Assembly (NCBI RefSeq): GCF_020733635.1
Contig: NZ_JAJFZL010000001.1
Coordinates: forward strand, 4,030,001 to 4,094,000
Direction of reading: 5' to 3'
DNA from: Nocardia spumae
GTDB lineage: Bacteria; Actinomycetota; Actinomycetes; Mycobacteriales; Mycobacteriaceae
Length of the DNA stretch: 64,000 bases
This document shows, one piece after another, positions 33,359 through 49,464 of this stretch (positions within the stretch are counted from its first letter, which is position 1; every line of letters begins with the position of its first letter). A model generated the notes under the pieces. That model made no database searches, had not been told where the DNA came from, and was given only the letters and a program-made list of their open reading frames with translations. The position numbers and the translations under genes were made by a program.

Positions 33359-34045
33359 TCAGCCCACCGCGGCGGCCGGTCGTCCGATCCGGCCGGCCTC
33401 GCCGAGGTGCGCGCCGGTCCAGGTCGACAGCGTGCCACCGGCCGCCAGCGGCAGCAGCGCACCGGTCAGACCCGTTGTGGCCGCGGCTCGCTCATCCGGA
33501 TAGCGCAGTTCGCTCGCGACCGCGCGGGGCATGGCCAGCAGATCGTCGGCGGCGGATCCGGCGCCCAGTTCCAGCCGGTGGCGCACCAGCGGCGCCCCGG
33601 CGGCATCGGCGATCAGATCGCCACACCAGAATCCGTGATCCTCACCGCTGCGGCCGATCTGGACGCGTTCGCGGATCCGCACCCGGGCGTCGGTGGCCAG
33701 CCGGACCACGGTGACGCTGCGATGGTCGGCGCCACCGGCGACGACGGTCGGCTCCGGATCCAGATCGAGTTCCGCGCCCGCGCCGACCTCGACATGCCAG
33801 CGGGCCGTCGACAGCCGGGTGTCCCGGCCGGGCAGCGCGATCGTGGCCGCCACCGATCGCAGCACCAGCCGTGCGCCGGGTTCGACGACGATGCCGATAT
33901 CGATGTCGTCGCCACCGAGCGGCGTGGCGGCGGCACCGATCAGATGAACGGTGTCGGGTCCGGTGGTCCGCACCGCGAGCCCGCCGACGGCGGCCACCCG
34001 CGGCGACGTTCCGGCGCGGGCGATGATGCGAATCTCAGTGCGCAA
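33359..34045 (-). CDS. ureD: Urease accessory protein UreD/UreH
   Basis: A 228-residue UreD, which binds the urease apoenzyme and, with UreF and UreG, forms the nickel-insertion complex. It shows the family features [19 protein letters not shown] and [22 protein letters not shown]. It is short and alanine-rich, like actinobacterial UreD. It begins with TTG and overlaps ureG by 11 bp. It is last in the ureF-ureG-ureD group and converges on ndh. Confidence 0.9.
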
Positions 34046-34763
34046 CAGCGCTTTCCCCGGTGACCGACGCCGGCACGTCGCCCTGCCCGGCCGCGGCGCG
34101 CAACTGGTCGCGTACCCAGCCCAGCACCGGTGTCGCGGCCGGATCCTCGGTCAGCGAGGTGAACACGAAGGTGCGGCCCTCGCGGACCGCCGCCGAATCC
34201 CGGCGCATCACCTCGAGATCGGCGCCCACCATCGGCGCGAGATCGGTCTTGTTGATCACCAGCAGATCCGAATACGTCACGCCCGGACCACCCTTGCGCG
34301 GAACCTTGTCGCCCCCCGCGACGTCGACCACGAAGATCTGCGCATCGATCAGACCGGCGGAGAAGGTCGCCGTGAGGTTGTCGCCGCCGGATTCGACGAG
34401 GATCAGATCCAGCCGCGGGTTGGCCTCGATCAAATCGTCGATGGCATCCAGATTGGCCGTGATGTCGTCACGGATCGCGGTGTGCGGGCAGCCGCCCGTC
34501 TGCACGGCGGTGATGCGCTCATCGGGCAGGACCGCATGCCGGCGCAGGAAGTCGGCGTCCTCGGTGGTGTAGATGTCGTTGGTCAGCACCGCCAGCGACA
34601 ACTCCTCCCGCAACTGCCGGCACAGAGCGGCGACCAGCGCCGTCTTCCCGGAGCCGACCGGCCCGCCGATCCCGATACGCACCGGTTCCCCGGGCGTGCG
34701 CACCCGCTTGGGTCGGTCGTGAGCATGATCGTGTGGTTCACCATCGATCAGATGGGGCGCCAT
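34035..34763 (-). CDS. ureG: Urease accessory GTPase UreG
   Basis: A 242-residue UreG. P-loop [10 protein letters not shown], metal-binding CPH in [22 protein letters not shown], and the GTPase guanine motif NKTD are all present. The N-terminus ([14 protein letters not shown]) has four His in a short stretch, which may bind nickel; no ureE is present anywhere in the window. The ATG used begins just before this His-rich tail; the frame stays open upstream but is not coding-like. It follows ureF by about 110 bp. Confidence 0.94.
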
Positions 34764-34875
34764 GGGCTCTCCTCTCGCATCGGCCTCTCGGCTGATCATC
34801 GTGGCCGATGCATGTGAACCCGGTGTTACCGGCCCGGTGAGCGAACCGAGACCACGCCCGATCCCCGCGGTGGCG

Positions 34876-35508
34876 CTAGGACGCGAACAGCGGCATCTCT
34901 CGGTCGAGGTGGCGCTGGGCGAGGACGTCGCCGAGCGGATCGGAGAGGGCGGCCGGGCCGGCGGTGGCCGCGCGGGCGGTCTCCTCACACAGCGGGGCGA
35001 GCGCCAGGGTGGTCGCCGCGACGGCGGCCGGATCCAGCGCGAGCAGCCGCTGCGCCGCGGTCGCCGCGCCGGTCATCGTCGTATAGACCACGACGCCGGC
35101 GATCTCGACCGGTTCCAGCTCCGCCGCCCGGCCCACGACCCCGAAGACCGTGGACAGATGCGGCCGCGCATCGAGGGCGGACCAATCATGGTGTGGCCAG
35201 ACGTATTTCGCCAGCCGCAGCAGCCCGCGACCCTGCGCCCGCGAGGCGGTGCGCGCGGCCGGTGCGAGAGTTCGGGCATCGGCCTCCGCGTCGGCCGTGG
35301 CGGGCGTCAGTGCTGCGGCGCACACGGCGGCCGCCAGCGAGGCCGACACCAGCCCGGTGGTGCGGATCCGGCGCCGCAGATATGCCGTCACCGTATCGAC
35401 ATCACGCACGATCCCCGAGGTGATCGCCTCCTCGACACCGCCGGAATGGACGTGCCCGCCGATGGGCAGCCGCGAATCGGCGAGCGACATCACCATCGCG
35501 AGACTCAT
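34876..35508 (-). CDS. ureF: Urease accessory protein UreF
   Basis: A 210-residue helical UreF, the GTPase-regulating partner of UreG. Features: [23 protein letters not shown] at the start and [19 protein letters not shown] later. Start choice: GGAGG at 35516-35520 abuts the first ATG (35514) directly, so the second ATG, 6 bases further on, is the better start. In relatives ureF directly follows ureC; here 11.5 kb of unrelated genes lie between them. Confidence 0.92.
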
Positions 35509-35556
35509 GGGCATCCTCCGCGGCCGATCACGGTCTCCGATCCTAGAACCGCGCGC

Positions 35557-36396
35557 TCAACCGGCCGCGGCGAAGTCCGCCGCGACGCTCACGGCGGCCC
35601 ATTTCTCGGTTTCCTCGGCACGCGCTCGACCGGCCGCGCGCGCCGCGGCCAGCGCGTCGCTGCCCAGCAGCAGCCGTCGCGGCGGTTCGGCCGCCTGGAC
35701 CACCTCGGTGATGATGCGGGCGGCGCGCGCCGGGTCACCGGGCTGGGATCCGTTGTTGTCGCGGCGGAAGCGATGGATCTCGCCGACGGTGGCTTCGTAG
35801 TCGGGCCCGACGGGATGGATGGTCATCGAGGCACCCTGCCAATCGGTGCGGAATGCCCCCGGCTCGACGATGACGACCCGGATCCCGAACGGCGCCACCT
35901 CGTTCGCGAGCACCTCCGAGAATCCCTCGACCGCGAATTTCGCCGTCTGATACGCGCCCAATCCGGGTGAGCCGCCGACCCGCCCGCCGATCGAGGAGAT
36001 CTGGACGAAGGTCCCCGACCGCTGCGTCCGCAGCGCCGGCAGCGCTGCCCGGGTGACGTTGACGACGCCGAACAGGTTGGTTTCGATCTGCGCCCGGAAG
36101 TCGTCGATGGCCGTCTCCTCGATCGGTGCGCTGTCGGCGTACCCGGCGTTGTTGACCACGACGTCGAGGGAGCCGAAGGTCTGCGTGACCGCGGCCACCG
36201 CAGCCTCGGCCGCCGCCGGGTCGGTGACATCCAACCGGACCGGCAGCAGGCGGGATCGGTATCGCCGCAGCAGCTCGTCGAGTTGCTCGGGATGACGCGC
36301 ACCGGCGGCGACCCGGTCTCCGGCGGCCAGCGCGGCCTCGGTCAGATGGCGGCCCAGGCCGCGTGACGCACCGGTGATCAGCCAGGTTCGGGCCAT
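35557..36396 (-). CDS. SDR family oxidoreductase
   Basis: A 279-residue SDR of the single-domain type often annotated oxidoreductase/retinol dehydrogenase-like. TGASRGLGRHL near residue 8, VVVNNAGYADSAP near residue 82, catalytic ISSIGG and YQTAKFA, and VEPGAFRTDW typical of this subgroup. The ATG is preceded by GGAGAG. Divergent from a TetR gene across an AT-rich spacer with several dyads. First gene downstream in the block that separates ureC and ureF. Confidence 0.88.
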   Translation of the reverse strand: MARTWLITGASRGLGRHLTEAALAAGDRVAAGARHPEQLDELLRRYRSRLLPVRLDVTDPAAAEAAVAAVTQTFGSLDVVVNNAGYADSAPIEETAIDDFRAQIETNLFGVVNVTRAALPALRTQRSGTFVQISSIGGRVGGSPGLGAYQTAKFAVEGFSEVLANEVAPFGIRVVIVEPGAFRTDWQGASMTIHPVGPDYEATVGEIHRFRRDNNGSQPGDPARAARIITEVVQAAEPPRRLLLGSDALAAARAAGRARAEETEKWAAVSVAADFAAAG

Positions 36397-36486
36397 GTTC
36401 AGCTCTCCGTTCGACGGTCCGGACACCCTCGGCGAGGGATCCGGACATCCATCAAATGTATCACCACTGTAGCACTTACCTCATTT

Positions 36487-36538
36487 TTGGCTACTGTAAA
36501 GCAGCAAATAGTGGACCAACTGCTGCTCTATTGGCTAC
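36487..36538. promoter_or_regulatory. AT-rich divergent promoter with repeated TTGGCTAC motifs
   Basis: TTGGCTAC occurs at 36487-36494 and 36531-36538, and a GCAGCA/TGCTGC dyad (36501-36506 and 36521-36526) lies between them. The spacer is visibly less GC-rich than its surroundings. Likely contains overlapping promoters and the TetR operator for the SDR and tetR genes. Confidence 0.45.
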
Positions 36539-36547
36539 CTTGGCCGG

Positions 36548-37117
36548 GTGAGAGCTGATGCCGCCCGCAATATCGAACTGGTGCTCACCACCGGCGCCCG
36601 GCTGCTCGCCGACGATCCGTCGGCCAGCCTGTCGGCCATCGCGGCCGCCGCGAACGTCGACCGGCGTACCGTCTACCGCCGCTTCGCCTCCCGCGACGAC
36701 CTGCTGGCGGCGGTGTATCGAGCGCGCTACGACGCGGTCGAGGAGGCCATCGTGAGCGCCCGGCTGCGGGAGGCGCCGGTCGCGGTCGCCCTGCATCGAT
36801 ACGTCGAGGCGATCGTCGCCGTCAACCGTCGCTGGCCCGTACAGACGGCCCGACTGGTGGCCGACGAGACCATCCGGGAACGGCGCGCCCCACTGATCGC
36901 CGAGGTCGACACATTTCTGCGCCGAGCCACCGACGACGGGCTGTTGCGCCCCGGCCTCCCCGAAGGCTGGGTATCGGCACTGCTGGCCCAGCTGACGGTC
37001 AACGCCGCCGAGGACCTACCGGACCTCGACCCCGCCCGCGCCGCCGACGTCGTGGTCGACACCCTGCTGCACGGTGTCGGCAACGTCCCGGAAGCGGAGC
37101 GCGGACCCGGCACTTGA
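36548..37117 (+). CDS. TetR/AcrR family transcriptional regulator
   Basis: A 189-residue TetR protein. The HTH (SLSAIAAAANVDRRTVYRRF) is near residues 30-50, and a C-terminal domain of the TetR_C type follows with QLTVNAAEDLP near the end. GTG start with GG-rich upstream sequence. Divergent from the SDR and followed by a quinone-oxidoreductase-like gene 33 bp later, which may be in the same transcript. Confidence 0.85.
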   Translation: MRADAARNIELVLTTGARLLADDPSASLSAIAAAANVDRRTVYRRFASRDDLLAAVYRARYDAVEEAIVSARLREAPVAVALHRYVEAIVAVNRRWPVQTARLVADETIRERRAPLIAEVDTFLRRATDDGLLRPGLPEGWVSALLAQLTVNAAEDLPDLDPARAADVVVDTLLHGVGNVPEAERGPGT

Positions 37118-37150
37118 CCTCAACATTGGCTGAGGTTGCAGGGTGAGATC

Positions 37151-38155
37151 ATGAAAGCGATACGTCTGCACGAATTCGGACCGGCCGAGAATCTGCGTTA
37201 CGAATCGGCGCCCGATCCGCTGCCCGCGGCCGGCCAGGTCCGGATCACCGTGGCGGCGGCCGGGATTCATCTGGTCGACACCCATCTGCGCCGAGGACTG
37301 CCCGGCCCCTACCCGCTGCCGCAGCTACCGACCATTCCCGGCCGGGAGGTCGCCGGCACCGTCGATCTGGTGGGCCCCGGCGTCGACCCGGATCTACTCG
37401 GCACCGCCGTCGTCACCCACCTGGGCACGGCACCGGGTGGCTACGCCGAACTGGCCGTCGCCGACGCGGCCCGGCTGCACTCGATTCCGAGCGAACTGGA
37501 CCCGGCCGCGGCGGTGGCGATGATCGGCACCGGCCGCACCACACTCGGCATCCTCGGATTCGCCGAACTCGAACCGGGACACCTCGCGGTGGTTCCCGCG
37601 GCGGCGGGCGGTATCGGAACGCTGCTGGTGCAGTATCTGCGCGCATCGGGGCTCACGGTCGTCGGACTGGCCGGCGGGCCGGACAAGGTCGCCACGGTGG
37701 CGGCCAACGGAGCCGACCTCGCCCTCGACTACACCGACCCCGGTTGGCCGGAGGCGGTGCGCGCACGGTTCGGGGAGCGGCCCGCCCACTGGGTCTTCGA
37801 CGGGGTCGGCGGGGCGGCCGGTCGAGCGGCGGTCGAACTGCTCGCACCGGGCGGTGCCCATCTGGTGTTCGGCTGGAGCGACACCGCCTTGGACATCGAC
37901 CGCGGCCACCTTGCCGCCCGCGGCATCACCTCGCGCTCGACCCTGGGTCCGGCGATGCTCGAACGCGGTGGCGGGATCGCGGCCCTCGAGACCCGCGCCC
38001 TGGCCGAAGCCGCATCCGGACGGCTACGACCGGCCGTACATCGCTTCGCCCTCACCGATGCCGCCGCCGCGCATCGGGCGCTCGAGCGGCGGGCCACCGT
38101 CGGGAAGGTGATTCTCGAGCCCTCACGGTCGATAACTGTAAGATTGCTGACGTAA
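37151..38155 (+). CDS. Zinc-independent MDR family dehydrogenase (quinone oxidoreductase-like)
   Basis: A 334-residue medium-chain dehydrogenase. The N-terminal catalytic domain starts MKAIRLHEFGPAENL and includes PTIPGREVAGTV; the Rossmann domain has VVPAAAGGIGTLLVQYL near residue 150. No zinc-ligand cysteines are seen, so it is probably an NADPH:quinone reductase-like enzyme. Ends GKVILEP plus a short extra tail. Lies 33 bp after tetR; likely regulated by it. Confidence 0.86.
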   Translation: MKAIRLHEFGPAENLRYESAPDPLPAAGQVRITVAAAGIHLVDTHLRRGLPGPYPLPQLPTIPGREVAGTVDLVGPGVDPDLLGTAVVTHLGTAPGGYAELAVADAARLHSIPSELDPAAAVAMIGTGRTTLGILGFAELEPGHLAVVPAAAGGIGTLLVQYLRASGLTVVGLAGGPDKVATVAANGADLALDYTDPGWPEAVRARFGERPAHWVFDGVGGAAGRAAVELLAPGGAHLVFGWSDTALDIDRGHLAARGITSRSTLGPAMLERGGGIAALETRALAEAASGRLRPAVHRFALTDAAAAHRALERRATVGKVILEPSRSITVRLLT

Positions 38156-38262
38156 TTGATTCGTAGCCTCCCGCGTCGCTCGCGGCTCCTACGCTGGAGG
38201 TCGCGTCTCGTTCTCACGGCCCGCGACGGAGGCCGGCGGGCGCACGCAGAGGAGGTTCGTCC

Positions 38263-39090
38263 ATGCCTGTGTGTACCACGCGCGACGGGGTCGACATCTA
38301 CTACAAGGATTGGGGGTCGGGCCGCCCGGTGGTGTTCATCCACGGCTGGCCGCTCAATGCCGACGCCTGGGACGATCAGTTGAAACACGTCGCGGACAAC
38401 GGATTTCGTGGCATCGCGCACGATCGCCGCGGTCACGGGCGCTCGGCGCAGCCGTGGAGCGGCTACGACTTCGACACCTTCGCCGACGATCTCGACGACC
38501 TGCTCACCCAACTCGACCTACGCGATGTGACCTTGGTCGCGCATTCCATGGGCGGCGGCGAACTGGCTCGCTACATCGGCCGTCACGGGACCGACCGCAT
38601 CCGCTCCGCAGTGTTGCTGTCGGCTATCCCGCCCTTGATGGCTCGTACCGCCGACAACCCCGAAGGCGTGCCCGACGAGGTGTTCGATCAGATCAAGAAG
38701 GGCATCCTGAACGAACGTTCGCAGTTCTGGCGCGACACCTCCGAGGGCTTCTTCAGCGCCAACCGGCCGGGCACCAAGGCCACCCAGGGCAATCGGGACG
38801 CGTTCTGGTTCATGGCGATGCACGAGTCGATCGAGGCCGGCGTGCGCTGCGTGGACGCCTTCGGATACACCGATTTCACCGCCGACCTCGAGAAATTCGA
38901 CGTGCCCACCCTGCTGGTGCACGGCGACGACGACCAGGTCGTCCCCATCGACGCCACCGCCCGTAAGGGGGCCAAGATCATCCCGAACGCCACCCTGACC
39001 GTCTACGAGGGGGGTTCCCACGGTATCGCGCTGGTCCCCGGGGACAAGGAGCGTTTCAACACCGATCTGCTGACATTCCTGCAGAGCTGA
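38263..39090 (+). CDS. Alpha/beta hydrolase, non-heme chloroperoxidase-like
   Basis: A 275-residue alpha/beta hydrolase. HGWPLNADAWD forms the oxyanion region, Ser in VAHSMGGGELAR is the nucleophile (near residue 98), Asp in HGDDDQVVP (near residue 226) and His in GGSHGIAL (near residue 255) complete the triad. Residues match the cofactor-free haloperoxidase/esterase group. An AGGAGG motif precedes the ATG by about 8 bases. It ends at a strong terminator. Confidence 0.88.
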   Translation: MPVCTTRDGVDIYYKDWGSGRPVVFIHGWPLNADAWDDQLKHVADNGFRGIAHDRRGHGRSAQPWSGYDFDTFADDLDDLLTQLDLRDVTLVAHSMGGGELARYIGRHGTDRIRSAVLLSAIPPLMARTADNPEGVPDEVFDQIKKGILNERSQFWRDTSEGFFSANRPGTKATQGNRDAFWFMAMHESIEAGVRCVDAFGYTDFTADLEKFDVPTLLVHGDDDQVVPIDATARKGAKIIPNATLTVYEGGSHGIALVPGDKERFNTDLLTFLQS

Positions 39091-39096
39091 ACCGGA

Positions 39097-39129
39097 CCCC
39101 GCTCGCGGGCAACATACCCGCGAGCGGGG
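39097..39129. terminator. Bidirectional terminator hairpin
   Basis: A perfect 13-bp inverted repeat (arms 39097-39109 and 39117-39129, loop CAACATA) lies between the convergent hydrolase and RibD-like genes. Confidence 0.75.
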
Positions 39130-39180
39130 AATCGGCGCTCATCGCCGTGTCCCCGAAGCGCGATGGCCCGCTCGGACGGC

Positions 39181-39792
39181 CTAGCGGCGGACCTTGAATT
39201 TCAGGTGTAGCACCCGCTCGCCCCGGACGACCACGTGCGGATCCTCCAGCAGGCAATGCCCGTCGATACCGCCGAAGTAGCGTTTCCCCGCGCCGAACAC
39301 CACCGGCACCATATCCATCGCGACCTCGTCCACCAGCCCGGCGGCGAGAATCTGAGCTCCCACCTCACCGGCGTTCACGCTGACCGTTCGCTCCCCCGCC
39401 AGCTCTCGGGCCTTGCCGATCGCGGCTCGCACCCCGTCGACGAAGTGGTACGACGCCTCCGGATGCCAGCCTTCGGGTTTGGGCCGATGCGACACCACCA
39501 CCACGTGTTCGCCCGCGGGCGGGCGGCCCTCCCAGCCGTTCACCAGGTCGAACAGGTGGCGGCCCATCACGATCACGCCGATCGACTGCCACATCGACCG
39601 GACGTATTCCGCGGAGGCGGCCGACACCCGGAAGCCCAGACCCGCTCCGGAATGATCGAACAGCGGGTCGTCGGTGTCGGTGATCGGGGTGTCACCGCTG
39701 AAGTACCACTCGTGCAGCGGTCCGACATCGTCTTTCTCGTCGGCGATGAAGCCGTCCAGCGACACCACGTTGTGCATGATTACCGTGCCCAC
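39181..39792 (-). CDS. Dihydrofolate reductase family protein (RibD C-terminal-like)
   Basis: A 203-residue protein of the DHFR/RibD-C superfamily: an N-terminal NVVSLDGFIA strand, MGRHLFDLVNGW, VVVSHRP and a C-terminal VVFGAGKRYFGG. These NADPH-binding proteins are common in actinobacteria; their substrates are mostly unknown, and this is probably not the essential FolA. Located 73 bp downstream of the AraC gene on the same strand. Confidence 0.85.
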   Translation of the reverse strand: MGTVIMHNVVSLDGFIADEKDDVGPLHEWYFSGDTPITDTDDPLFDHSGAGLGFRVSAASAEYVRSMWQSIGVIVMGRHLFDLVNGWEGRPPAGEHVVVVSHRPKPEGWHPEASYHFVDGVRAAIGKARELAGERTVSVNAGEVGAQILAAGLVDEVAMDMVPVVFGAGKRYFGGIDGHCLLEDPHVVVRGERVLHLKFKVRR

Positions 39793-39865
39793 AGATTCTC
39801 CTCGAATGCCCGTGCGGATGTCGTTTCGATCGTGCCGATCCGGACGGCGCCGGGCTTGTAGAAAA

Positions 39866-40708
39866 TCACTCGGCGGGCATCGGACCGCTGTCGGGCGGAA
39901 AGCCCCGCGCGGCCGGAAACCGGCGCCGCAGCGCCACGTACTGGGTCGGGGTGTGGCCGGTGAAGTCCTTGAACTCTCTGCTGCAGTGAGCCTGGTCGAA
40001 ATAGCCTGCGGTGTAGGCGATCTCCGTCCAGTCGACCGGGCGCGAGGCGTCCACGGACAGGATCACCCGCGCGAAGCGGTAGATTCGCGCCACCCGCTTC
40101 GGCGTCACCCCGATATGCGATGTGAACTGCGCGGCCAAATAGTTGGCGCTCACGCCGGCCGCATCGGTCAGCGCGCCGACCGGCATCGCGCCGTGGGCCC
40201 TCGCCAACCGCGCGCCCGCGTACCGAACCAGGTCGAGGCCGCGAACGGGTGTTTCGGCCAGCCGCGAGCGCAGTTCCTCCTCCACCACATCCAGCGCCTC
40301 GGCAGCCGAGACGCCGGCGCCGACCCGGTTGCGGATGCGATCCGCGGATCGCTGCCAGAGTTCGTCGAGGGGCACCCATCGATCACGCAGCTCACCGGCC
40401 GGGACGCCGACGAACGGCGCCATGCCCCACGGCTTGAAATGCACCCCGACCAGCCGCAGGCGGGCGGGGTACTCGACTACGAAACGCCTGGTCCATACCC
40501 CCATGAACCATCCATCGCACATCAGGGCCGGTGGCATCGAAGGCTCGCCGTCCCACAGGCGGACCGGCTCGCCCAGGTTGACGAACAGGTGCGCCGACGG
40601 CATCGGCGGGACGGTCATCCGGCGGTGGCGCGGGATCCCGGTCAGGACATAGATGTCGTCGACGAAACGGTCCAGCGGCGGGGCGGGCACCCGGGCGACG
40701 TATCGCAT
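39866..40708 (-). CDS. AraC family transcriptional regulator
   Basis: A 280-residue regulator. Residues about 1-150 form a DUF6597-type N-terminal sensing domain (MPSAHLFVNLGEP, GVHFKPWGMAPF), and residues about 170-265 form the double HTH with ALTDAAGVSANYLAAQF and the AraC signature IAYTAGYFDQAHCSREFKDFTGHTPTQY (split). It may control the RibD-like gene downstream. Confidence 0.88.
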   Translation of the reverse strand: MRYVARVPAPPLDRFVDDIYVLTGIPRHRRMTVPPMPSAHLFVNLGEPVRLWDGEPSMPPALMCDGWFMGVWTRRFVVEYPARLRLVGVHFKPWGMAPFVGVPAGELRDRWVPLDELWQRSADRIRNRVGAGVSAAEALDVVEEELRSRLAETPVRGLDLVRYAGARLARAHGAMPVGALTDAAGVSANYLAAQFTSHIGVTPKRVARIYRFARVILSVDASRPVDWTEIAYTAGYFDQAHCSREFKDFTGHTPTQYVALRRRFPAARGFPPDSGPMPAE

Positions 40709-40743
40709 GGGTCAAGTGTCGCCGATGGGCCGGCCCCGGTTGC

Positions 40744-41619
40744 CTAGGTCGCGCGGAAGCTGCGCGCCATCAATCGCTGTGCGGGACCGCGGGTCATATC
40801 GGTCCACGCCTGCAACGGGCCGCTCCACCACGGCGAGATCTCGACCGGTTTGGCGGTGACCGCGTGGCACACCAGGTCGGCGGCCTCGTGTGCGGTGAGT
40901 CCGGGCATCGATCCGAAATCGGTCGGTGCGCTCATGCGCGTATGCACCAGCGGCATGTAGATCGAGGTGGTGCTGACCCCGTCCGCGGCGATTTCGGTGG
41001 CCACCGTCCGTAACCACTGATCGAAGGCCGCTTTCGACGCGCCGTAGGCGGCCCAGCGCGGAGCCGGCGGCATCCGCAGACCCCAGGTGGACATGTTGAC
41101 GATATGTCCCTGCCGGCGCTCGCGCATCGTGGGCAGCAGCGTCAGCAACAATCGCACCGGGCCGAGGTAGTTGATATCGATCGTGCGGGTGAAATCGTGG
41201 AAACGGTCGTAGGATTCGTCGATCGAGCGACGAATCGAGCGACCGGCGTTGTTGATCACCATGTCGACCCGGCCGTGTGTGGCGAGCACCGTGCGGGCCA
41301 GTTCGTCGACGGCGTCCATATCGGTGAGGTCGGCGCGGTAGCTGTGCGCGACGCCGCCCGCGGCGGTGATGGCGTCGGCCGCTGCTTCGAGTTCGTCGCC
41401 GGATCGGGCGACCATCACCACCACCGCGCCCGCGGCGGCCAGTTTGCCGGCGGCGACCTTGCCGATGCCGTGCGATGCGCCGGTCACCAGCACCACCCGC
41501 CCGGAGACGGCCGCGCGCAGATCCTTCGCGCGCGGCCGAGTGGTCGGGTACAGCAGCCGGGTGGCGATCCGTTCGGCCAGCGGACGCCCGGGGGAATCGT
41601 TCGAGACACTGTCTGTCAC
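40744..41619 (-). CDS. SDR family oxidoreductase
   Basis: A 291-residue SDR with a short N-terminal extension before VVLVTGASHGIGKVA (near residue 45), VINNAGRSIRR near residue 120, catalytic Ser in VNMSTWGL and YGASKAAF near residue 190. The ERIATRLLYP segment and the tail WTDMTRGPAQRLMARSF resemble mycobacterial SDRs thought to act on lipids or fatty acids. The GTG start follows the gene's usual N-terminus (TDSVSND). It lies 35 bp upstream of the araC gene. Confidence 0.86.
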   Translation of the reverse strand: MTDSVSNDSPGRPLAERIATRLLYPTTRPRAKDLRAAVSGRVVLVTGASHGIGKVAAGKLAAAGAVVVMVARSGDELEAAADAITAAGGVAHSYRADLTDMDAVDELARTVLATHGRVDMVINNAGRSIRRSIDESYDRFHDFTRTIDINYLGPVRLLLTLLPTMRERRQGHIVNMSTWGLRMPPAPRWAAYGASKAAFDQWLRTVATEIAADGVSTTSIYMPLVHTRMSAPTDFGSMPGLTAHEAADLVCHAVTAKPVEISPWWSGPLQAWTDMTRGPAQRLMARSFRAT

Positions 41620-41707
41620 AGCCGAAACTGTATTGGCGGGCCCGGCACCGCGGGGCCGGAATGGCCCCACCGGAATCGCGCCGGCGCCATCGAGCGCCGA
41701 AACCGGC

Positions 41708-43228
41708 TCAGTCCGGACCGGCTTGCGCGGTCGCCGGATCCACCGCACGCCGGCGCCGCCGCGACGAGGTTGCCGCCGCCGCGACCGCCATCGCGATCAG
41801 CAGCGCCGCGCCGACGGCCACCGCGGTGTGCATCCCGGTGACGAACGAGGTCTGCGCCGCGCGGACGACCCCGGCATCGCCGTGGTGCTCCACGATCGTC
41901 TCCCCCAATGTGTCGGCGAAGTCGCCGCCGGACCGGAAGATCAGCGCGGCCAGCGAGCCCAGCAGCGACAAGCCCAGCGCATTGCCCAGTTCGAAACTGG
42001 TCTCGCTGATACCGACGGCCGAGCCCGCGCGCTCGGCCGGAACCGACGACACCGCGACCTCCGACACCAGGGTGAACACGATGCCGTAGCCGAGGCCCGC
42101 GATCGTGGAACCCGCCAGGTACCAGCCGATTCCACTGTCGACACCGATGCCCAGCAGCGCCAGATTGCCGACGGCGGCCGCGCTGAGCGCCAGCACGAAC
42201 GACCCCCGGGTGCCGAGCCGGCGTGCCACCCGGGCGCCGCCCATCGAGCAGACGAAGACCGCGATGGCCGCGGGAATACCCAGCAGCGCGGCGCCCAGGA
42301 CGTCGCGCCCCGCGACCGTCTGCAGATACGTGCTGGTGAGATAGCTCATTCCCGCCAGCGACATCATGCCCACCGTCGAGGATCCGATGGCCACCCGGAA
42401 CAGCCCGCGGCGGAACAGGCTCAGATCCAGTAGCGGATCGGTCAGCACCCGCTGCCGCCGCACGAACGCCACCAGCACCGCGATACCGGCGATCGCGAGA
42501 ACCACCGACACCGCGTCGACGCCCTCGGCGGCGGCGCGCTTGACCGCGTACACCAGCGGCAGGATGCCACCGATCGACATGACCACGCTGACCGGATCGA
42601 GCGGTCCACGCCCGGACGAGCGGTGTTCGGGTAGCAGCAGCGGAGCCAGCGCCAGCAGTACCAGCAACACCGGTGTGTTGATCAGGAAGATGGAACCCCA
42701 CCAGAACTTGTGCAGCAGCAGCCCGCCGATCACCGGGCCCACCGCCGAGCCGCCCGCGAAGAACGCCGTCCAGATGCCGATGGCCGTCCCGCGCGCCCGC
42801 GCATCGGCGAACAGGCTCGAGATCAGCGCCAGACTCGACGGCAGCAGGGTCGCACCGCCGACACCCATCAGCGCCCGCGCCACGATGAGCATGCCGGCGC
42901 CGGAGGCGAAGGCCGCCATCAGCGAGGCGAGTCCGAACACCGTGGCACCCGCGAGCAGAATGGTCCGGCGGCCGATGCGGTCGCCGAGATTGCCCATGGT
43001 GATGAGCAGCCCCGCGATCATGAATCCGTAGATGTCGAGGATCCACAGTTGCTGTTCGGCCGACGGGTTGAGGTGTTCGGTCAGTGTCGGCATCGCCAGA
43101 TACAGCACCGACATATCCATCGACACCAGCAGTACCGGCAGCACCAGCACTGCCAGGCCGAACCAGGCCCGACGGGGAGTAGCGCTCGGCGCGGCGCGCA
43201 CCGCCGCCGAGGTATGTATGCCGACCAT
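41708..43228 (-). CDS. MFS drug exporter, DHA2 (14-TM) family
   Basis: About 506 residues with 14 hydrophobic helices. Motif A GNLGDRIGRRTIL and motif C-like GGSAVGPVIGGLLL match drug:H+ antiporters of the DHA2/EmrB-QacA type. It probably exports a hydrophobic cation or antibiotic at the cytoplasmic membrane. Two start codons are adjacent (GTG 43231 and ATG 43228); the ATG is used. Divergent from a TetR gene over an exceptionally regular operator. Confidence 0.9.
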   Translation of the reverse strand: MVGIHTSAAVRAAPSATPRRAWFGLAVLVLPVLLVSMDMSVLYLAMPTLTEHLNPSAEQQLWILDIYGFMIAGLLITMGNLGDRIGRRTILLAGATVFGLASLMAAFASGAGMLIVARALMGVGGATLLPSSLALISSLFADARARGTAIGIWTAFFAGGSAVGPVIGGLLLHKFWWGSIFLINTPVLLVLLALAPLLLPEHRSSGRGPLDPVSVVMSIGGILPLVYAVKRAAAEGVDAVSVVLAIAGIAVLVAFVRRQRVLTDPLLDLSLFRRGLFRVAIGSSTVGMMSLAGMSYLTSTYLQTVAGRDVLGAALLGIPAAIAVFVCSMGGARVARRLGTRGSFVLALSAAAVGNLALLGIGVDSGIGWYLAGSTIAGLGYGIVFTLVSEVAVSSVPAERAGSAVGISETSFELGNALGLSLLGSLAALIFRSGGDFADTLGETIVEHHGDAGVVRAAQTSFVTGMHTAVAVGAALLIAMAVAAAATSSRRRRRAVDPATAQAGPD

Positions 43229-43244
43229 CACCTATCCTTCTCCA

Positions 43245-43287
43245 CGATGCGTACGTCGTACGCGGCCCGGGTACAGCGTACGCATCG
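43245..43287. promoter_or_regulatory. Operator with 11-bp perfect inverted repeat between MFS and TetR genes
   Basis: CGATGCGTACG (43245-43255) and CGTACGCATCG (43277-43287) are perfect inverted arms; inside the left side, GCGTACGTCGTACGC (43249-43263) is itself a perfect 7-1-7 palindrome. The hexamer CGTACG occurs three times (43250, 43257, 43277). It spans the space from 17 bp upstream of the MFS start to 27 bp before the tetR start. Confidence 0.75.
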
Positions 43288-43313
43288 GGCCGCGGAAAGG
43301 AAAGCGAGATTCC

Positions 43314-44057
43314 ATGCCGGATGATTCCCACCCACCCGCACCGGACGATTCCCACCCACCCGCACCGGACGATCCCCACGCACCGGCGCGGGGCAGATCC
43401 CACTCCGAGCGGCTGACCCGCGCGGCGATCGTCGACACGGCCATCGCCCTGGCCGACGCCGACGGCATCGAGGGGTTGTCGATGCGCCGCATCGCCGACC
43501 GGATGGGTGTGGGCGCGATGTCGCTGTACCGGCATGTGCCGAACAAGGACGCGCTGCTGGCCGAGATGACCGACGAGGTCGCCCGCCGCTATCCGTATCC
43601 GGAGCCGGATTCGGGCTGGACCTGGCGCGAACGGGTGCGGGCGGCCGCCGACATCGACTGGCAGCTGTACCGGCTGCACCCGTGGGTGCTGTTCACCTTC
43701 GCGGTGCCGCGCTACAACTTCGGGCCGCACAGCCTGGCCTGTCTCGCCTGGCTGACCGAAGGATTCACCGAGCTGACCGACGATCGGCGCGAGGCCACCC
43801 GGATGGCGCTGCAGGTGTGGAGCTATATCGCCGGCATCGCCCTGCAGCAGGTCAGCGCGTCGATGCTGGCCGAACGCGATGCCGACGACGAGGAGACCTC
43901 CGGTCTGACGGCACTACTGGAAGGCACGCCGCGCTGGCCCAGCCCCCCGGCACTGGCGCCGCTCGAGGGGACAGGAACCGGCGATCTGCTCGATCCGGAG
44001 CGGCAACTGCACTCCGGCCTGATCGCGATGTGCGACGGATTCGCCGCCAGGCACTGA
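43314..44057 (+). CDS. TetR family transcriptional regulator with N-terminal octapeptide repeats
   Basis: A 247-residue TetR regulator of the TetR_C_1 type (TetR/tetracycline-repressor-like C-terminal domain). It begins with two exact and one degenerate PDDSHPPA repeats, then the HTH at residues about 40-80 (AIALADADGIEGLSMRRIADRMGVGAMSLYRH split). The C-terminal domain is helical and ends LIAMCDGFAARH. AAAGGAAAG precedes the ATG. Very likely represses the divergent MFS exporter and itself. Confidence 0.88.
   Translation: MPDDSHPPAPDDSHPPAPDDPHAPARGRSHSERLTRAAIVDTAIALADADGIEGLSMRRIADRMGVGAMSLYRHVPNKDALLAEMTDEVARRYPYPEPDSGWTWRERVRAAADIDWQLYRLHPWVLFTFAVPRYNFGPHSLACLAWLTEGFTELTDDRREATRMALQVWSYIAGIALQQVSASMLAERDADDEETSGLTALLEGTPRWPSPPALAPLEGTGTGDLLDPERQLHSGLIAMCDGFAARH
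43317..43388 (+). repeat. 24-bp tandem repeats in tetR, two exact and one degenerate
   Basis: Units at 43317-43340, 43341-43364 and 43365-43388. The first two encode the same peptide PDDSHPPA and differ only at a synonymous base in the Asp codons; the third encodes PDDPHAPA. In-frame period of 24 bp, within the disordered N-terminus before the HTH. Confidence 0.85.
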
Positions 44058-44105
44058 CCAGCGCCGGATCCCGCCGCCCCGCAACGACTTCGGCGGAGGT
44101 TTTCG

Positions 44106-44187
44106 CTCACGGTGAGTCTTGGTGGTGGCAAAACGGCCGCGGCCGAGGATAATTCGTGCGGCCACTCGGTGTGCCACCCGAGCGGCC
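44106..44187 (+). promoter_or_regulatory. Leader region of the cysteine dioxygenase gene with palindrome and hairpin
   Basis: CTCACGGTGAG (44106-44116) is a 5-1-5 palindrome. At 44160-44187 a hairpin forms from GGCC and CTCGG pairing with CCGAG and GGCC around a short loop, with one mismatch; it ends 29 bp before the GTG start. May be an operator plus a structured 5' leader. Confidence 0.4.
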
Positions 44188-44216
44188 CCTGATCCGCACG
44201 ACACATAAGGGGTAGT

Positions 44217-44741
44217 GTGACCACGGCTTTGCCAGTGAATCTGAAGCATGCCAGAGATATTCATCCGAGCCTCGACGTGCCGCTACTACACGAGGCCGTT
44301 GTCCCGGAACGAGCGCTGTGGTCACCGGCGGAGTTGCACGAGCTGACCGCGGTCGTGGCCAGCGAGCTGGCGACCCCCCTGCTCGATATCGTGCGATTCG
44401 ACACCACGCAGCGCTGGTGGGCCCGGCTCGCACTCACCATGGGCGTGGAACTGTGGCTGCTGTCCTGGGCGCCCGGGCAGGGTACCGAACCACACGACCA
44501 CGGCGGCGCGGCCGGATCGTTCACCGTCTCCATCGGCGAACTCCACGAGGAGTACCGCCACGGGGCCGGGCCCGTGCGTTCGGCGACCTGGCAGGCCGGT
44601 GACACGGTGGCGTTCGGACCCGAGCGCGCCCATCAGCTGCTCAACCGCGGCGCCCGTCCAGCCGCCACGGTGCACGCCTACTCACCGCCGTTGCGCCCGG
44701 TCCGCGATTACCGGGCACTGACCGATTTCACGGGTGTGTGA
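44217..44741 (+). CDS. Cysteine dioxygenase family protein
   Basis: A 174-residue cupin of the cysteine dioxygenase family. Iron ligands His93 and His95 lie in PHDHGGAAG, and His139 in ERAHQLLN, matching the three-His site. The Y residue of the C-terminal VHAYSPPLRP is the conserved active-site tyrosine. It converts cysteine (or a close thiol) to the sulfinic acid. GTG start with AAGGGG 6 bases upstream. A rhodanese gene follows 40 bp later, pointing to sulfur catabolism. Confidence 0.88.
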   Translation: MTTALPVNLKHARDIHPSLDVPLLHEAVVPERALWSPAELHELTAVVASELATPLLDIVRFDTTQRWWARLALTMGVELWLLSWAPGQGTEPHDHGGAAGSFTVSIGELHEEYRHGAGPVRSATWQAGDTVAFGPERAHQLLNRGARPAATVHAYSPPLRPVRDYRALTDFTGV

Positions 44742-44781
44742 CCATACGGGTGGATCACCGCGCACGAGAGGAGAAACGGGT

Positions 44782-45174
44782 ATGAGCGCCGAGGATCTAC
44801 TCGCACAGGCGCGGGCCGGATTGGATCGGGTCACCCCCGGCGAGGCGCAGCGGCGCTTGGAACACGGCGCGCTGGTCGTCGATATCCGCCCGCACGCCAA
44901 CCGGCTCGCCGAGGGGGAGATTCCGGGATCCGTCGTGGTCGAGCGCATCGTGCTGGAGTGGCGCCTCGACCCGACCGGGAGCCACCGGCTGCCCGGCCTG
45001 TCGCCCGAGACCGAGGTGGTGATCGTCTGTAACGAGGGCTACGCCTCGAGCCTGGCCGCCGCCGACGCCCGCCGGCTCGGGCTGGCCCACGCCACCGATC
45101 TCGTCGGCGGGTTCCGGGCCTGGAAGGCCGCGGGCCTGCCGGTATCGCCCGGCGGCACCCCCGCGGTTCCGTAG
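44782..45174 (+). CDS. Rhodanese-like sulfurtransferase
   Basis: A 130-residue single-domain rhodanese. The active-site Cys is in VIVCNEGYASSLAA (near residue 90), preceded by VVDIRP and followed by DLVGGFRAWKAAGLPV. AGGAG precedes the ATG. Together with the upstream dioxygenase it probably handles sulfane sulfur from cysteine. Confidence 0.88.
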   Translation: MSAEDLLAQARAGLDRVTPGEAQRRLEHGALVVDIRPHANRLAEGEIPGSVVVERIVLEWRLDPTGSHRLPGLSPETEVVIVCNEGYASSLAAADARRLGLAHATDLVGGFRAWKAAGLPVSPGGTPAVP

Positions 45175-45208
45175 CGACGACACCCGCGGACGGCGGGCCG
45201 GTTGCCGA

Positions 45209-45607
45209 TCAGTAGTACGACCGCCCCGCAATCCCACCCGACACCGACCACACCTCCACGATCAGCCCGTCGACGACGCGCAGAATATCGGTGCCACTGA
45301 TCGCGATCTCACCGTCGGCGCCGGGCCGCCGCGAACCGTACGGGCGGGCGACGAATCCGGTGCGGCCGTGGTCGATGTCGACCACGGCGACACCCTGGAC
45401 CTCGAACCGCTGCCCCGGCAGCGCCGCGCGGAATGTCGCGATCTGGCGCGCGAACGCCGCGGGATCGCGCACGGTGTCGTACACCTCGGCGCCCGGCTGG
45501 GCGTAGCGCAGAGTGAAACGCGGCGCCATGATCCGCTCGGCGAGTTCGAGTTCGCCGTTCCACATCGCCGTCCACCGATCGAACAGTTCGATTCCGAAGT
45601 CGCGCAC
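45209..45607 (-). CDS. SnoaL-like / NTF2-fold protein
   Basis: A 132-residue NTF2-like protein: LFDRWTAMWNGELELAERIM at the N-terminus, a middle strand FEVQGVAVVDIDHGRTGF and a C-terminal GTDILRVVDGLIVEVWSVSGG, the SnoaL pattern. Function unknown, possibly an isomerase or a small-molecule binding protein. GTG start. It is divergent from a PadR gene with shared operators. Confidence 0.82.
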   Translation of the reverse strand: MRDFGIELFDRWTAMWNGELELAERIMAPRFTLRYAQPGAEVYDTVRDPAAFARQIATFRAALPGQRFEVQGVAVVDIDHGRTGFVARPYGSRRPGADGEIAISGTDILRVVDGLIVEVWSVSGGIAGRSYY

Positions 45608-45656
45608 GATAACTCCAATAGTCTCATTGATACGGTATTGCCGAGATGAAGCTATA

Positions 45657-45669
45657 GTCTCAACGAGAC
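45657..45669. promoter_or_regulatory. PadR operator candidates between SnoaL and padR genes
   Basis: GTCTCAACGAGAC is a perfect 5-3-5 palindrome. Another GTCTC half-site (45621-45625) and the palindrome ATACGGTAT (45630-45638) lie nearby. All are within the 109-bp divergent region. Confidence 0.55.
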
Positions 45670-45716
45670 CATGTCAATGAGCGACCGCGGCCGCATCGAA
45701 CCGAAAGCAGACGACC

Positions 45717-46289
45717 ATGGCGGATTCGGGAGCGCAGGACCACATCGTGCTCGGGCTCATCGCCCGCCACGGCCCGCTGACCCCGTACGAGCTCAAGGCC
45801 CACATGGACGAGAGCGTCGAATACTTCTGGCCGGTGCCGCACGCGCAGCTCTACCGGATTCCGGCCCGGCTGGCCGAGCGCGGGCTACTACACGAGGACG
45901 CCGAGGAGACCGGGCGGCGCCGGCGGGTCTTCCACCTCACCGACGCCGGGCGCGAAGCCTTGCGGGACTGGCTGTCGGACCCGGACTGCCCGCCGCCGGA
46001 GACCCGCGATCCGGCGCAGGTGAAGCTGTTCTTCGCCGATCTGGGCGCGCCGGGCGATGTGGTCGCGCTGGCGCGGCAGCAGGCCGCCGAGCACCGCGGC
46101 TGGCTCGATCGCTATCGCGCGCTGCTCGCCGCGATCGATCCGGACGACACCGTACGCGCCCGATCCCGTTCGCGCGTCCTCGAACTCGGCATCGGCCACG
46201 AACAGGCCCAGGTGGACTTCTGGACCGCACTCGCCGAGGATCCGGAACACGGCCCCGGCGGCCCGCGGTCCCGGGACCGAGCGGGTTAG
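45717..46289 (+). CDS. PadR family transcriptional regulator
   Basis: A 190-residue PadR protein: N-terminal winged helix (VLGLIARHGPLTPYELKAHM, then YFWPVPHAQLYRIPARLAERGLL) and a C-terminal helical dimerisation domain (Vir_C type, residues about 95-180). Divergent from the SnoaL-like gene and probably represses it. Confidence 0.88.
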   Translation: MADSGAQDHIVLGLIARHGPLTPYELKAHMDESVEYFWPVPHAQLYRIPARLAERGLLHEDAEETGRRRRVFHLTDAGREALRDWLSDPDCPPPETRDPAQVKLFFADLGAPGDVVALARQQAAEHRGWLDRYRALLAAIDPDDTVRARSRSRVLELGIGHEQAQVDFWTALAEDPEHGPGGPRSRDRAG

Positions 46290-46293
46290 CCGA

Positions 46294-46959
46294 TCACTCG
46301 CCGACGACCACCGCGTAGGCGAAACCGTCCCAGCCCTTACCGCCGACGGTCTGCAGCACCGTGGCCTCCACCCGCGGCTCGTCGGCGAGCAGGCGCAGCA
46401 CCTCGCGGCCGCCGCGCACTCCCGGATCGCCGGCATCGCCGTCGACCAGCGCGCCGTTGCGCACCACATTGTCGACGATGATGATCGAGCCCGGACGGGT
46501 CAGGCGCAGCGCCCACTGCACATAGTTGGCATTGTTGATCTTGTCGGCATCGATGAAGACCAGATCGAAGGGTTCGGAGTGGTCCCGCACGACGTCCGGC
46601 AGGCTGTCCAGCGCCGCGCCGACCCGGATCTCCACCCGCTCCCCGACTCCCTTGCGGTCGAGGTTCGCGCGGGCGACCTCGGCATGGTGTGGATCGAATT
46701 CCAGCGTCACCACCCGGCCCCGCGGTCCCACCGCACGCGCCAGCCACACCGTGCTGTAACCGCCGAGGGTGCCGATCTCCAGCACCCGCCGCGCCCCCGC
46801 CGACAGCGCGATCAGATGCAGGAACTTGCCCTGTGGCGGTGAGACGTCGATCGGCGGCAACCCCGCGTCCGAATTGGCCTGTGCCACATCGGAATCACCG
46901 TCCCCGATCAGTGTGTCCACCAGATAACGATCGACCGCGCCCCATTCGGTATCCGTCAT
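46294..46959 (-). CDS. O-methyltransferase (COMT-like class I SAM enzyme)
   Basis: A 221-residue methyltransferase of the bacterial catechol O-methyltransferase-like family. SAM motif I is VLEIGTLGGYSTVWLA, metal/acidic residues FIDADKINNANYV, and IIIVDNVVRNGALV; these match the divalent-metal-dependent OMT group. Substrate unknown. It is 68 bp downstream of ureC on the same strand and is the first gene of the block between ureC and ureF. Confidence 0.9.
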   Translation of the reverse strand: MTDTEWGAVDRYLVDTLIGDGDSDVAQANSDAGLPPIDVSPPQGKFLHLIALSAGARRVLEIGTLGGYSTVWLARAVGPRGRVVTLEFDPHHAEVARANLDRKGVGERVEIRVGAALDSLPDVVRDHSEPFDLVFIDADKINNANYVQWALRLTRPGSIIIVDNVVRNGALVDGDAGDPGVRGGREVLRLLADEPRVEATVLQTVGGKGWDGFAYAVVVGE

Positions 46960-47027
46960 GAGCGCCAGTCTGCCACCACGATCCGCGGTGCGCCCGTACG
47001 CCGGACGGCCGGCGGAGGCCGCGCGGG

Positions 47028-48749
47028 TCAGAACAGGAAGTACCGCTGCGCCATGGGGAGTTCGGTAGCCGGTTGCTGATCCCAGACCTCACCGTCGATC
47101 CGCACCGTGAAGGTGTCCGGTTCCACCTCGATGCGCGGCATGGCGTCGTTGAGCGGCAGATCGGCCTTGGTGCGGCGCCGGACATCGGCCACCGGCACCA
47201 GCCTGCGCCGCACCTGCAAGCGCTCGGCGAGGCCGTCCTCGACGGCCTGCGGGGAGACGAAATGCAGCGAGGTCCCCGCGGCGACCACCGGGGCGGCACC
47301 GAACATCGGCCGCGGCAGCACCGGCTGCGGGGTCGGGATCGAGGCATTGGCATCACCCATCGCGGCCCAGGCGATCGCGCCGCCCTTGAGCACCGCGTGC
47401 GGGCGCACGCCGAAGAAGGCCGGTTCCCATAGCACCAGATCCGCGAGCTTGCCGACCTCGACCGATCCGATCTCGTGATCCATTCCGTGCGTAATCGCCG
47501 GGCAGATGGTGTATTTCGCGATATAGCGCCGGACCCGGTTGTTGTCGGCGGCGCCGTCACCGCTCAGTGCGCCGCGGCGGCGCTTCATCATGTGGGCGGT
47601 CTGCCAGGTGCGCATCACCACCTCGCCGATCCGGCCCATGGCCTGGGAATCCGAGCCGATCATCGAGATCGCGCCCATATCGTGCAGCAGGTCCTCGGCG
47701 GCGATGGTCGAGGGCCGGATCCGGCTCTCCGCGAAGGCCAGATCCTCGGGCACGGCCGGATTGAGATGGTGGCACACCATCAGCATGTCGAGATGTTCGT
47801 CGAGGGTGTTGATCGTATGCGGACGGGTGGGGTTGGTGGAGCTGGGCAGCACGTTGGAGTGCGCGGCGACGGTGATGATGTCGGGCGCGTGGCCACCGCC
47901 CGCCCCCTCGGTGTGATACGAGTGGATGACCCGGCCGGCGATCGCGGCCAGCGTGTCCTCCACGAATCCGGCCTCGTTGAGGGTGTCGGAATGCAATGCG
48001 ACCTGCACCCCGGCGGCATCGGCCACACTCAGGCAGGCGTCGATCGCCGCGGGGGTGGTGCCCCAGTCCTCGTGCAGCTTGAAACCGCCCGCGCCACCGC
48101 GCAATTGCTCCCACATGGCCTCGGGCCGCACCGTGTTGCCCTTGCCGAGCAGCAGGACGTTGACGGGCCAGCCGTCGGTGGCCTCGAGCATGCGGCCCAG
48201 ATGCCAGGCGCCCGGGGTGACCGTGGTCGCCTTGGAGCCCTCGGCCGGGCCGGTGCCCCCGCCGACCAGTGTGGTGATGCCCCCGCCGAGCGCTTCCTCG
48301 AGCAACTGCGGGCAGATGAAATGCACGTGGCAGTCGATGGCACCGGCGGTGAGAATGCGGCCGTTACCAGCGATGATCTCGGTCGACGGGCCGACCACCA
48401 GATCCGGATGCACCCCGTCCATGGTCTCGGGATTGCCGGCCTTGCCGATCGCGCAGATCCGGCCGTCACGAATACCGATGTCGGCCTTGATGATTCCCCA
48501 GTAGTCGATGATCACCGCGCCGGTGATCACGGTGTCGGGAGTTCCCTCGGCCCGGGTGGCCCGGGCCTGGCCCATCGACTCCCGCAGCACCTTGCCGCCG
48601 CCGAATACCGCCTCGTCGCCGGCCAGACCCGGTCCGCCACTGCGATCCTCGGTGATCTCGACGACGAGATCGGTGTCCGCCAAGCGGATACGGTCACCGG
48701 CGGTGGGGCCGAACAGCGCGGCGTAGCGGGCGCGGGAGAGCTCGGTCAT
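47028..48749 (-). CDS. ureC: Urease alpha subunit UreC
   Basis: A 573-residue urease catalytic subunit, full length. By alignment to known ureases the two-nickel ligands are His141 and His143 (CHVHF), the carbamylated Lys224 ([10 protein letters not shown]), His253, His279 and Asp367 (GSDSQ); the catalytic base is His327 (MVCHHLN). It hydrolyses urea to ammonia and carbamate in the cytoplasm. It overlaps ureB by 4 bp. The accessory genes normally just downstream are instead 11.5 kb away. Confidence 0.97.
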
Positions 48750-49150
48750 CGGTCGAGCGGCCTTTCGTCGGCGTTGTCCCGGGCCGGCGGGGCGCCCGCC
48801 GCGACAACGGGTCCCAGTGGTCCCGGAGCGCCGGGGCCGATGCCGTACACCTCGCGGGTGCCACCCAGCGGCACGAGCGACACGCGTTGCGCCAGACCGG
48901 GTTCGAAACGCACCGCGGTCCCCGCGGGAATATCGAGACGGCGGCCGTGGGCGGCGTTCCGATCGAATTCCAGGGCGGCGTTGGCCTGGGGGAAGTGCAC
49001 ATGACTACCGACCTGCACCGGACGATCACCGGTGTTGACGACCTCGAATTCGATGCGGTCGGCACCGGCGTTGATCTCGATCGGATCGGCGGCGAGCAGG
49101 TACTGGCCCGGCACCACGCCGGATTCGTCCCCGATGGACGTCGTGCTCAT
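48746..49150 (-). CDS. ureB: Urease beta subunit UreB
   Basis: A 134-residue urease beta subunit with [16 protein letters not shown] at the start, [16 protein letters not shown] and [15 protein letters not shown]. The C-terminal tail of about 30 residues ([14 protein letters not shown]...) is longer than in the enteric proteins. It lies 11 bp after ureA and overlaps ureC by 4 bp. Confidence 0.95.
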
Positions 49151-49161
49151 GATGTCTGACC

Positions 49162-49464
49162 TCAGCCGATCGGATGATGGACGGTCACCAATTTCGTGCC
49201 GTCGGGAAAGGTGGCCTCGACCTGGACATCGGCGATCATCTCCGGGACGCCCGACATCACGTCGTCGCGGGTGAGCACGGTGCGGCCCGACGACATCAGC
49301 TCGGCGACCGTGCGGCCGTCACGGGCACCCTCGAGGACGTGATCGGTGATGATCGCGACCGCCTCGGGATGATTGAGCTTCAATCCGCGGGCCTGCCGCC
49401 GGCGGGCCAGTTCGGCCGCATAGCTGAGCATGAGTCGTTCCTGCTCGTGCGGCGACAAACGCAC
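49162..49464 (-). CDS. ureA: Urease gamma subunit UreA
   Basis: A 100-residue urease gamma subunit: [46 protein letters not shown] and the C-terminal [16 protein letters not shown] are all standard. First gene of ureABC. GTG start. Confidence 0.96.

Follow-up and report, generated by a model that had tools for sequence, protein, structure and literature searches.

In a 64-kb stretch of DNA from Nocardia spumae (the window, to whose positions all coordinates refer), the operon of the nickel enzyme urease is divided into two halves, ureABC (49464 to 47028) and the maturation genes ureFGD (35508 to 33359), which lie 11.5 kb apart. From the comparison of gene order across the genus, the split is most plausibly a trait inherited from the ancestor of Nocardia rather than a peculiarity of this genome. 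Upstream of ureF in the split cluster we found a conserved, apparently new element, TAGGATCG, which resembles a −10 promoter element. We consider it likely that a block of genes was inserted into the operon of a Nocardia ancestor, that many other genes were later gained and lost in the gap, and that ureFGD became an independent, leaderless transcription unit. Searches of the open-access PMC literature gave no description of the Nocardia urease split, and a term search of PMC5336288 gave no mention of urease. The urease genes of the window are as follows.

49162 to 49464, minus strand: ureA, urease gamma subunit (Pfam Urease_gamma, 161.8 bits)
48746 to 49150, minus strand: ureB, urease beta subunit (Pfam Urease_beta, 136.4 bits)
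47028 to 48749, minus strand: ureC, urease alpha subunit (NCBIfam PRK13206, 1168 bits against a cut-off of 907)
34876 to 35508, minus strand: ureF (Pfam UreF, 68.3 bits; start at 35508 placed by homology with MSLA... starts)
34035 to 34763, minus strand: ureG (NCBIfam TIGR00101, 280.5 bits against a cut-off of 204.2)
33359 to 34045, minus strand: ureD (Pfam UreD, 72.8 bits; start codon uncertain)

All six genes are recognizable with Pfam and NCBIfam models, share the minus strand and keep the canonical order ureABCFGD, in agreement with the initial annotation, which had been made from the sequence alone. UreC exceeds its NCBIfam cut-off across the full length and is the single Urease_alpha match in the window's genome. 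The longest ureF open reading frame (ORF) starts at 35514, six positions ahead of the homology-based start. The adjacency that would allow a single transcript is lost, with about 11.5 kb and 14 genes between the ureC stop and the ureF start. As first reported, several of these genes are on the other strand; they are in fact seven per strand, and a single transcript across the block would therefore be antisense to half of it.

To see how widespread the split is, UreC and UreG were each searched in 150 Nocardia genomes and matched in 120 and 117, respectively. The two genes share a contig in 84 genomes and are adjacent in none of them (0/84); 33 of the 117 genomes, with ureC and ureG on separate contigs, were left out of this judgement, and three more (G029, G030, and G129) have UreC without a UreG match. 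Canonical order on the same strand is kept in 75/84 genomes, at distances of 3.2 to 66 kb (median 9.4 kb, ureF included), and in the other nine the halves are 0.8 to 5.9 Mb apart in contig coordinates, which would be less the other way around a circular chromosome. We also read 39 named loci within a 10-kb flank, 10 of which showed ureF only and could not be measured. The split is present in all 23 measurable Nocardia loci (23/23), with gaps of 2.6 to 8.7 kb, larger gaps falling outside the flank. Its recurrence throughout the genus shows that the split is not due to chance or to misassembly.

Outside Nocardia, the comparison comprised 108 genomes of the family with high-scoring UreC matches (identity of at least 79%) among the matches listed. 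In 105 of these 108, ureC and ureG are 678 to 849 bp apart, leaving room for ureF only, and the UreC and UreF alignments are separated by 2 to 8 nt in five Rhodococcus loci and one Antrihabitans locus. The exceptions among the matches listed are G363 and G185, with the genes on different contigs, and G156, with the genes in distant places. G156 (loci L183 and L184), from another genus that it shares with G185, has its break between ureF and ureG, ureABCF being distant from ureGD. Six Nocardia genomes carry a second, divergent urease (UreC 55 to 66% identical, apart from a single fragment at 80%), in which no more than ~0.8 kb separates ureC from ureG; an intact arrangement is therefore possible in the genus. 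The claim that relatives keep the urease genes together thus holds for the other genera of the family. The view of the split as an oddity of this genome does not: the initial annotation had itself proposed that a split shared by most close relatives would be ancestral, and it is shared by 84/84 judgeable Nocardia genomes.

From ureC to ureF, the block in the window consists of genes for an O-methyltransferase (−), PadR (+), SnoaL (−), a rhodanese (+), a cysteine dioxygenase (+), TetR (+), an MFS protein (−), an SDR (−), AraC (−), RibD_C (−), an alpha/beta hydrolase (+), a zinc-type quinone oxidoreductase (+), TetR (+), and an SDR (−). Those that matter for the comparison are listed here.

46294 to 46959, minus strand: O-methyltransferase, first gene of the block (Pfam Methyltransf_3)
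43314 to 44057, plus strand: tetR1, TetR regulator divergent from the MFS gene (TetR_N)
41708 to 43231, minus strand: DHA2-type MFS efflux pump, its gene constant across the blocks read (MFS_1)
40744 to 41619, minus strand: sdr1, SDR that is a frequent companion of the MFS gene (adh_short)
36548 to 37117, plus strand: tetR2, TetR regulator divergent from sdr2, clade-specific (TetR_N; four loci including the window)
35557 to 36426, minus strand: sdr2, SDR directly upstream of ureF, clade-specific (adh_short; four loci including the window)

We read 68 complete gaps, the window's included, with a gene caller trained on the window's codon use. They hold 2 to 18 genes (median 8) from 127 families, 76 of which were seen once. 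The MFS family is present in 68/68 gaps, a neighboring TetR gene and the O-methyltransferase in 61/68 each, and the SDR in 41/68; the smallest gaps, in G022 and G111, have only TetR and MFS genes between ureC and ureF. The initial description of the intervening genes as unrelated is thus apt for most of the block, which varies, and fails for the MFS gene and, nearly as clearly, for the TetR and O-methyltransferase genes. Changes at the locus were placed on a tree of the MFS protein, which leaves out second MFS copies and unfetched genomes. Four loci (L108, L114, L147, and L156, from G023, G066, G148, and G044) show a second break, with extra genes between ureF and ureG that in L156 run to the end of the stretch read; this second split amounts to three changes on the MFS tree.

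With the operon divided, stoichiometry may be altered and the maturation genes would need a promoter of their own, as the initial annotation had pointed out, and the sequence before ureF suggests that they have such a promoter.

35540 to 35545, minus strand: predicted −10 element TAGGAT of ureFGD, read in the window and from the conservation of TAGGATCG before ureF

Counted by one rule for all genes (the last motif variant within 120 nt), TAGGATCG precedes ureF in 63/76 Nocardia loci, compared with 1/1,173 other genes of the same loci, and the arrangement conserved just before ureF is C-N-TAGGATCG-N4-RTG. Looser definitions give the same contrast: TAGGAT lies at most 60 nt from the called ureF start in 64/76 loci (10/1,207 other genes), and TANNNT lies 5 to 8 nt before an ATG or GTG in 69/76 (114/1,207 other genes of these loci). 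The hexamer is usually 6 nt from the start codon and 8 nt in the window, which is why TAGGAT-N6-RTG has no match there. In a column profile of 72 of the 76 loci, the eight core columns reach 1.4 to 2.0 bits, the hexamer columns being high by construction since the alignment is anchored on the motif, and columns −40 to −3 range from 0.13 to 0.63 bits. The 72 aligned loci have no conserved −35 element, and TAGGAT is absent from the stretches read of six intact outgroup loci. The 76 Nocardia loci have 39 to 861 nt of space before ureF; the genes overlap or are 10 to 16 nt apart in five of six outgroup loci, and the 89 nt of the sixth (L183) arise because the gene caller chose a later start.

The TANNNT layout, also found 5 to 8 nt before the start codon of 38/49 sdr1 genes, is shared by other genes of the locus, so that the type of promoter is not special to ureF, and the exact TAGGATCG is. 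Within the window, TAGGATCG by itself occurs twice, which is not above chance; the argument therefore rests on the comparison between species. A scan of 17 kb with the sigma-70 consensus returned one promoter-like site, no more than shuffled sequences did, and a scan of 17 kb for intrinsic terminator-like sites returned none. On the ureA side a different conserved motif, GTGCCAGAAT-like, is seen by eye; the two halves are therefore without a common promoter sequence. According to the available text of PMC3898074, a TANNNT motif is centered 7 to 12 bp upstream of 73% of the primary starts of Mycobacterium tuberculosis, a conserved −35 element is absent, and leaderless transcripts account for 26% of the genes having a primary start. 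The Nocardia loci show what is expected of a leaderless promoter, a TANNNT 5 to 8 nt from the start codon and conserved across species. By analogy, ureFGD would be a leaderless transcription unit with a predicted −10 element.

Two other explanations of the expression of ureFGD or of its upstream motif were weighed. It is improbable that ureFGD has no promoter and depends on read-through from the upstream gene, sdr2 here and the MFS gene or sdr1 elsewhere. Such a gene is on the same strand in 46/76 Nocardia loci, and in the window sdr2 ends 42 nt from the longest ureF ORF, but in the other 30/76 loci the preceding gene is divergent and the motif is conserved regardless of what lies upstream. 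The motif also stays with ureFGD when the genes move: G009 (L240) has ureFGD turned around in situ, flanked by the SDR gene and the NDH2-like side, and TAGGAT has moved along, and in G117 and G042, with ~18 to 25 kb between the MFS gene and ureF, TAGGAT still precedes ureF. Just as unlikely is that the TAGGATCG block is a regulator site or a translation signal and not a −10 element. Its conservation does reach past the hexamer, with CG in 67/75 loci and a C two bases ahead in 66/75; however, the fixed spacing between TANNNT and a start codon agrees with how promoters are laid out in M. tuberculosis, where, in the available text of PMC3898074, a conserved −35 element is likewise missing.

The start codon that follows the hexamer is not always that of ureF.

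35505 to 35531, minus strand: predicted upstream ORF (GTG...TGA, 8 codons), whose stop overlaps the ureF ATG as ATGA

In the window it is the GTG at 35531, and the ureF ATG at 35508 is overlapped. An initial sorting of the 76 loci gave 38 with an upstream ORF, 36 in frame, and 2 without the motif. Four genomes (G060, G109, G024, and G140), for which the codon taken lay 1 or 27 nt away from the hexamer, were dropped, so that six of the 76 loci are unsorted; in the rest, the codon is the in-frame ureF start in 35 loci and opens a short upstream ORF in 35. Among the 35 upstream ORFs, a length of 8 codons is found in 26, and the stop overlaps the ureF start as ATGA in 31. The two forms differ by two changes on the MFS tree, the upstream ORF being found in one large clade that includes the window. 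Because of the overlap between its stop and the start of ureF, translation of ureF would be coupled to it in that clade, and most other lineages would use the in-frame ureF start directly.

The gap is most simply read as the result of a single event, in which a TetR-MFS block was inserted before Nocardia diversified, after which genes came and went at the site. In the Nocardia ancestor, a TetR-regulated MFS pump block, probably with the O-methyltransferase and often an SDR gene, would have entered an intact ureABCFGD operon at the ureC-ureF junction. The gap would afterwards have gained and lost many other genes, and ureFGD would have turned into a separate transcription unit, its sigma-A-type −10 element TAGGAT giving a leaderless mRNA. 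Two outer genes bear on whether the insertion took place within an existing operon.

49575 to 50030, minus strand: 4HBT thioesterase, flanking the urease locus upstream
31840 to 33345, plus strand: NDH2-like oxidoreductase (Pyr_redox_2), flanking the urease locus downstream

Of the six intact outgroup loci read, L182 carries both the 4HBT gene upstream of ureA and the NDH2-like gene after ureD, L180 and L181 have the NDH2-like gene only, and L185 to L187 have neither. The same two genes presumably flank the urease cluster of M. tuberculosis. It is very unlikely that the two halves entered this lineage by separate acquisitions and were never part of a single operon here, an idea suggested by the nine genomes with halves megabases apart and by the 3/6 intact outgroup loci with other outer neighbors. 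All nine far-split genomes (9/9) keep ureABC beside the 4HBT gene and ureFGD beside the MFS and NDH2-like genes, canonical order and orientation persist in 75/84 genomes, and the intact cluster in L182 shares both outer neighbors.

The MFS gene was matched in 145/150 Nocardia genomes and in 9 of 46 hand-picked outgroup genomes, eight times at 55 to 60% identity and once, in G224, at 75%. The MFS tree places the TetR-MFS pair of G224, a genome of another genus (L195 and L234), among the Nocardia sequences, which suggests that the pair left Nocardia by transfer. In L103 and L123 (G005 and G086), the last codons of sdr2 apparently persist before ureF where sdr2 itself was not called, which may be a remnant of a gene lost from the gap.

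The two halves, although apart, behave as one functional unit, as indicated by their joint absence: all 30 of the 150 Nocardia genomes without UreC also lack UreG. The MFS gene is kept in 28/30 of these, the other two (G107 and G110) being incomplete assemblies. Among the 20 urease-less regions read first, those of G139, G094, and G025 retain the block between the 4HBT and NDH2-like genes, with no urease genes called. Explaining where urease is absent takes six changes on the MFS tree, of which starred branches force five. A single clade accounts for 23 of the 28 urease-less rows, and the lone cases include G054, a poor assembly of 1,340 contigs that was scored as urease-less. Halves are kept or lost together in 147/150 genomes, and the three exceptions (G029, G030, and G129; L221 to L223) are unclear assemblies with ureABC present, in which loss of ureFGD cannot be told from an assembly gap because the contigs stop 1.2 to 2.2 kb past the MFS gene. 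It is hardly probable, then, that the split marks a urease in decay. The absence of UreC from 30/150 genomes would fit decay, but where the proteins are kept they are well conserved (84 to 97% identity to the window's for primary UreC, 84 to 95% for UreG), and the joint retention or loss of the halves also opposes it. A recent event peculiar to the window's genome, to which one might point because its exact 14-gene content is not fully repeated in any other gene string read, is rejected by the split in every judgeable genome and every measurable named locus.

Several observations weigh against an ancestral insertion followed by independent expression of ureFGD. TAGGAT was not in the 100 nt read before ureF of G132, whose insert is similar to those of G117 and G042, and no such motif precedes ureF in G126. 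The 76 ureF loci come from related species and are not independent. In the window, sdr2 is just upstream of ureF on the same strand, and read-through from it could also serve ureFGD. The upstream ORF may be of less weight than the Shine-Dalgarno-like GGAGG that many such ORFs contain. Since the outgroup flanks are mixed, insertion in place is backed by some relatives and not all; the source of the inserted block was not found in our searches; and the MFS tree is a quick tree of a single protein with many weak branches. Taken together with the evidence above, an inserted TetR-MFS block and a separate ureFGD unit nevertheless remain the likely account, in which we infer the single insertion, the promoter activity, the leaderless initiation, and the coupling.

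It is tempting, if doubtful, to assume that the split has been kept because it is useful, the maturation proteins being expressed independently from a leaderless mRNA with a clade-specific, coupled upstream ORF of mostly 8 codons. The nickel loading of urease could then be tuned separately, for example, sustained in starvation that favors leaderless translation. In any case, Nocardia preserves, in clean form, the natural history of a broken operon that survived, with the outgroups as the intact state and the genus as a display of later stages: gaps of 2 to 18 genes, halves megabases apart, inversion in place, and joint loss. The promoter-like element would mark the point at which an orphaned operon half became independent. 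How a split-off half regains expression, and whether an enzyme and its maturation genes need to stay together, thus become testable questions.

An integrative genomic island or mobile element was considered as the nature of the block and rejected for this window. The window has no tRNA, and the block genes gave no Pfam match to a transposase or integrase; the initial annotation, too, had seen none of the three at either junction. Likewise, the two block junctions have no repeat pairs of at least 18 nt, and GC content is even across the window (0.66 to 0.71). An old insertion may since have shed such traces. The start of tetR1 (43317 to 43388) contains three copies of a 24-nt tandem repeat. An Rfam match to the 5' ureB small RNA at 48293 to 48587 (plus strand), antisense to ureC, is probably no more than conservation of the ureC coding sequence.

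The constant pair of the block is reminiscent of LfrA-like TetR-MFS efflux cassettes, which also combine a DHA2-type MFS gene with a neighboring TetR gene. The best NCBIfam match of the window's MFS protein is LfrA, at 360.5 bits, far under the equivalog cut-off of 825; the protein is LfrA/QepA-like, below both cut-offs, and was therefore not named LfrA. The predicted ureFGD promoter resembles the leaderless sigma-A-type promoters of M. tuberculosis, as described in the available text of PMC3898074, in its TANNNT, in the absence of a conserved −35 element, and in a start codon at the expected start site; it differs in that the Nocardia start is predicted from sequence and that many loci have, in addition, a short ORF upstream that overlaps ureF. 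The Nocardia locus has its six genes, their order, and their orientation in common with the actinobacterial ureABCFGD cluster, which is intact in Rhodococcus, in Antrihabitans, and in further genera of the family; it differs by the block between ureC and ureF and by the promoter-like motif of ureFGD. Splitting of operons by insertion, followed by a new promoter, has reportedly been described in work on the operon life cycle. The Nocardia urease genes match that scheme in their old operon, inserted genes, and apparently independent distal expression, and what they add to it is a genus-wide spread, the conservation of a promoter-like element, and halves that are absent together.

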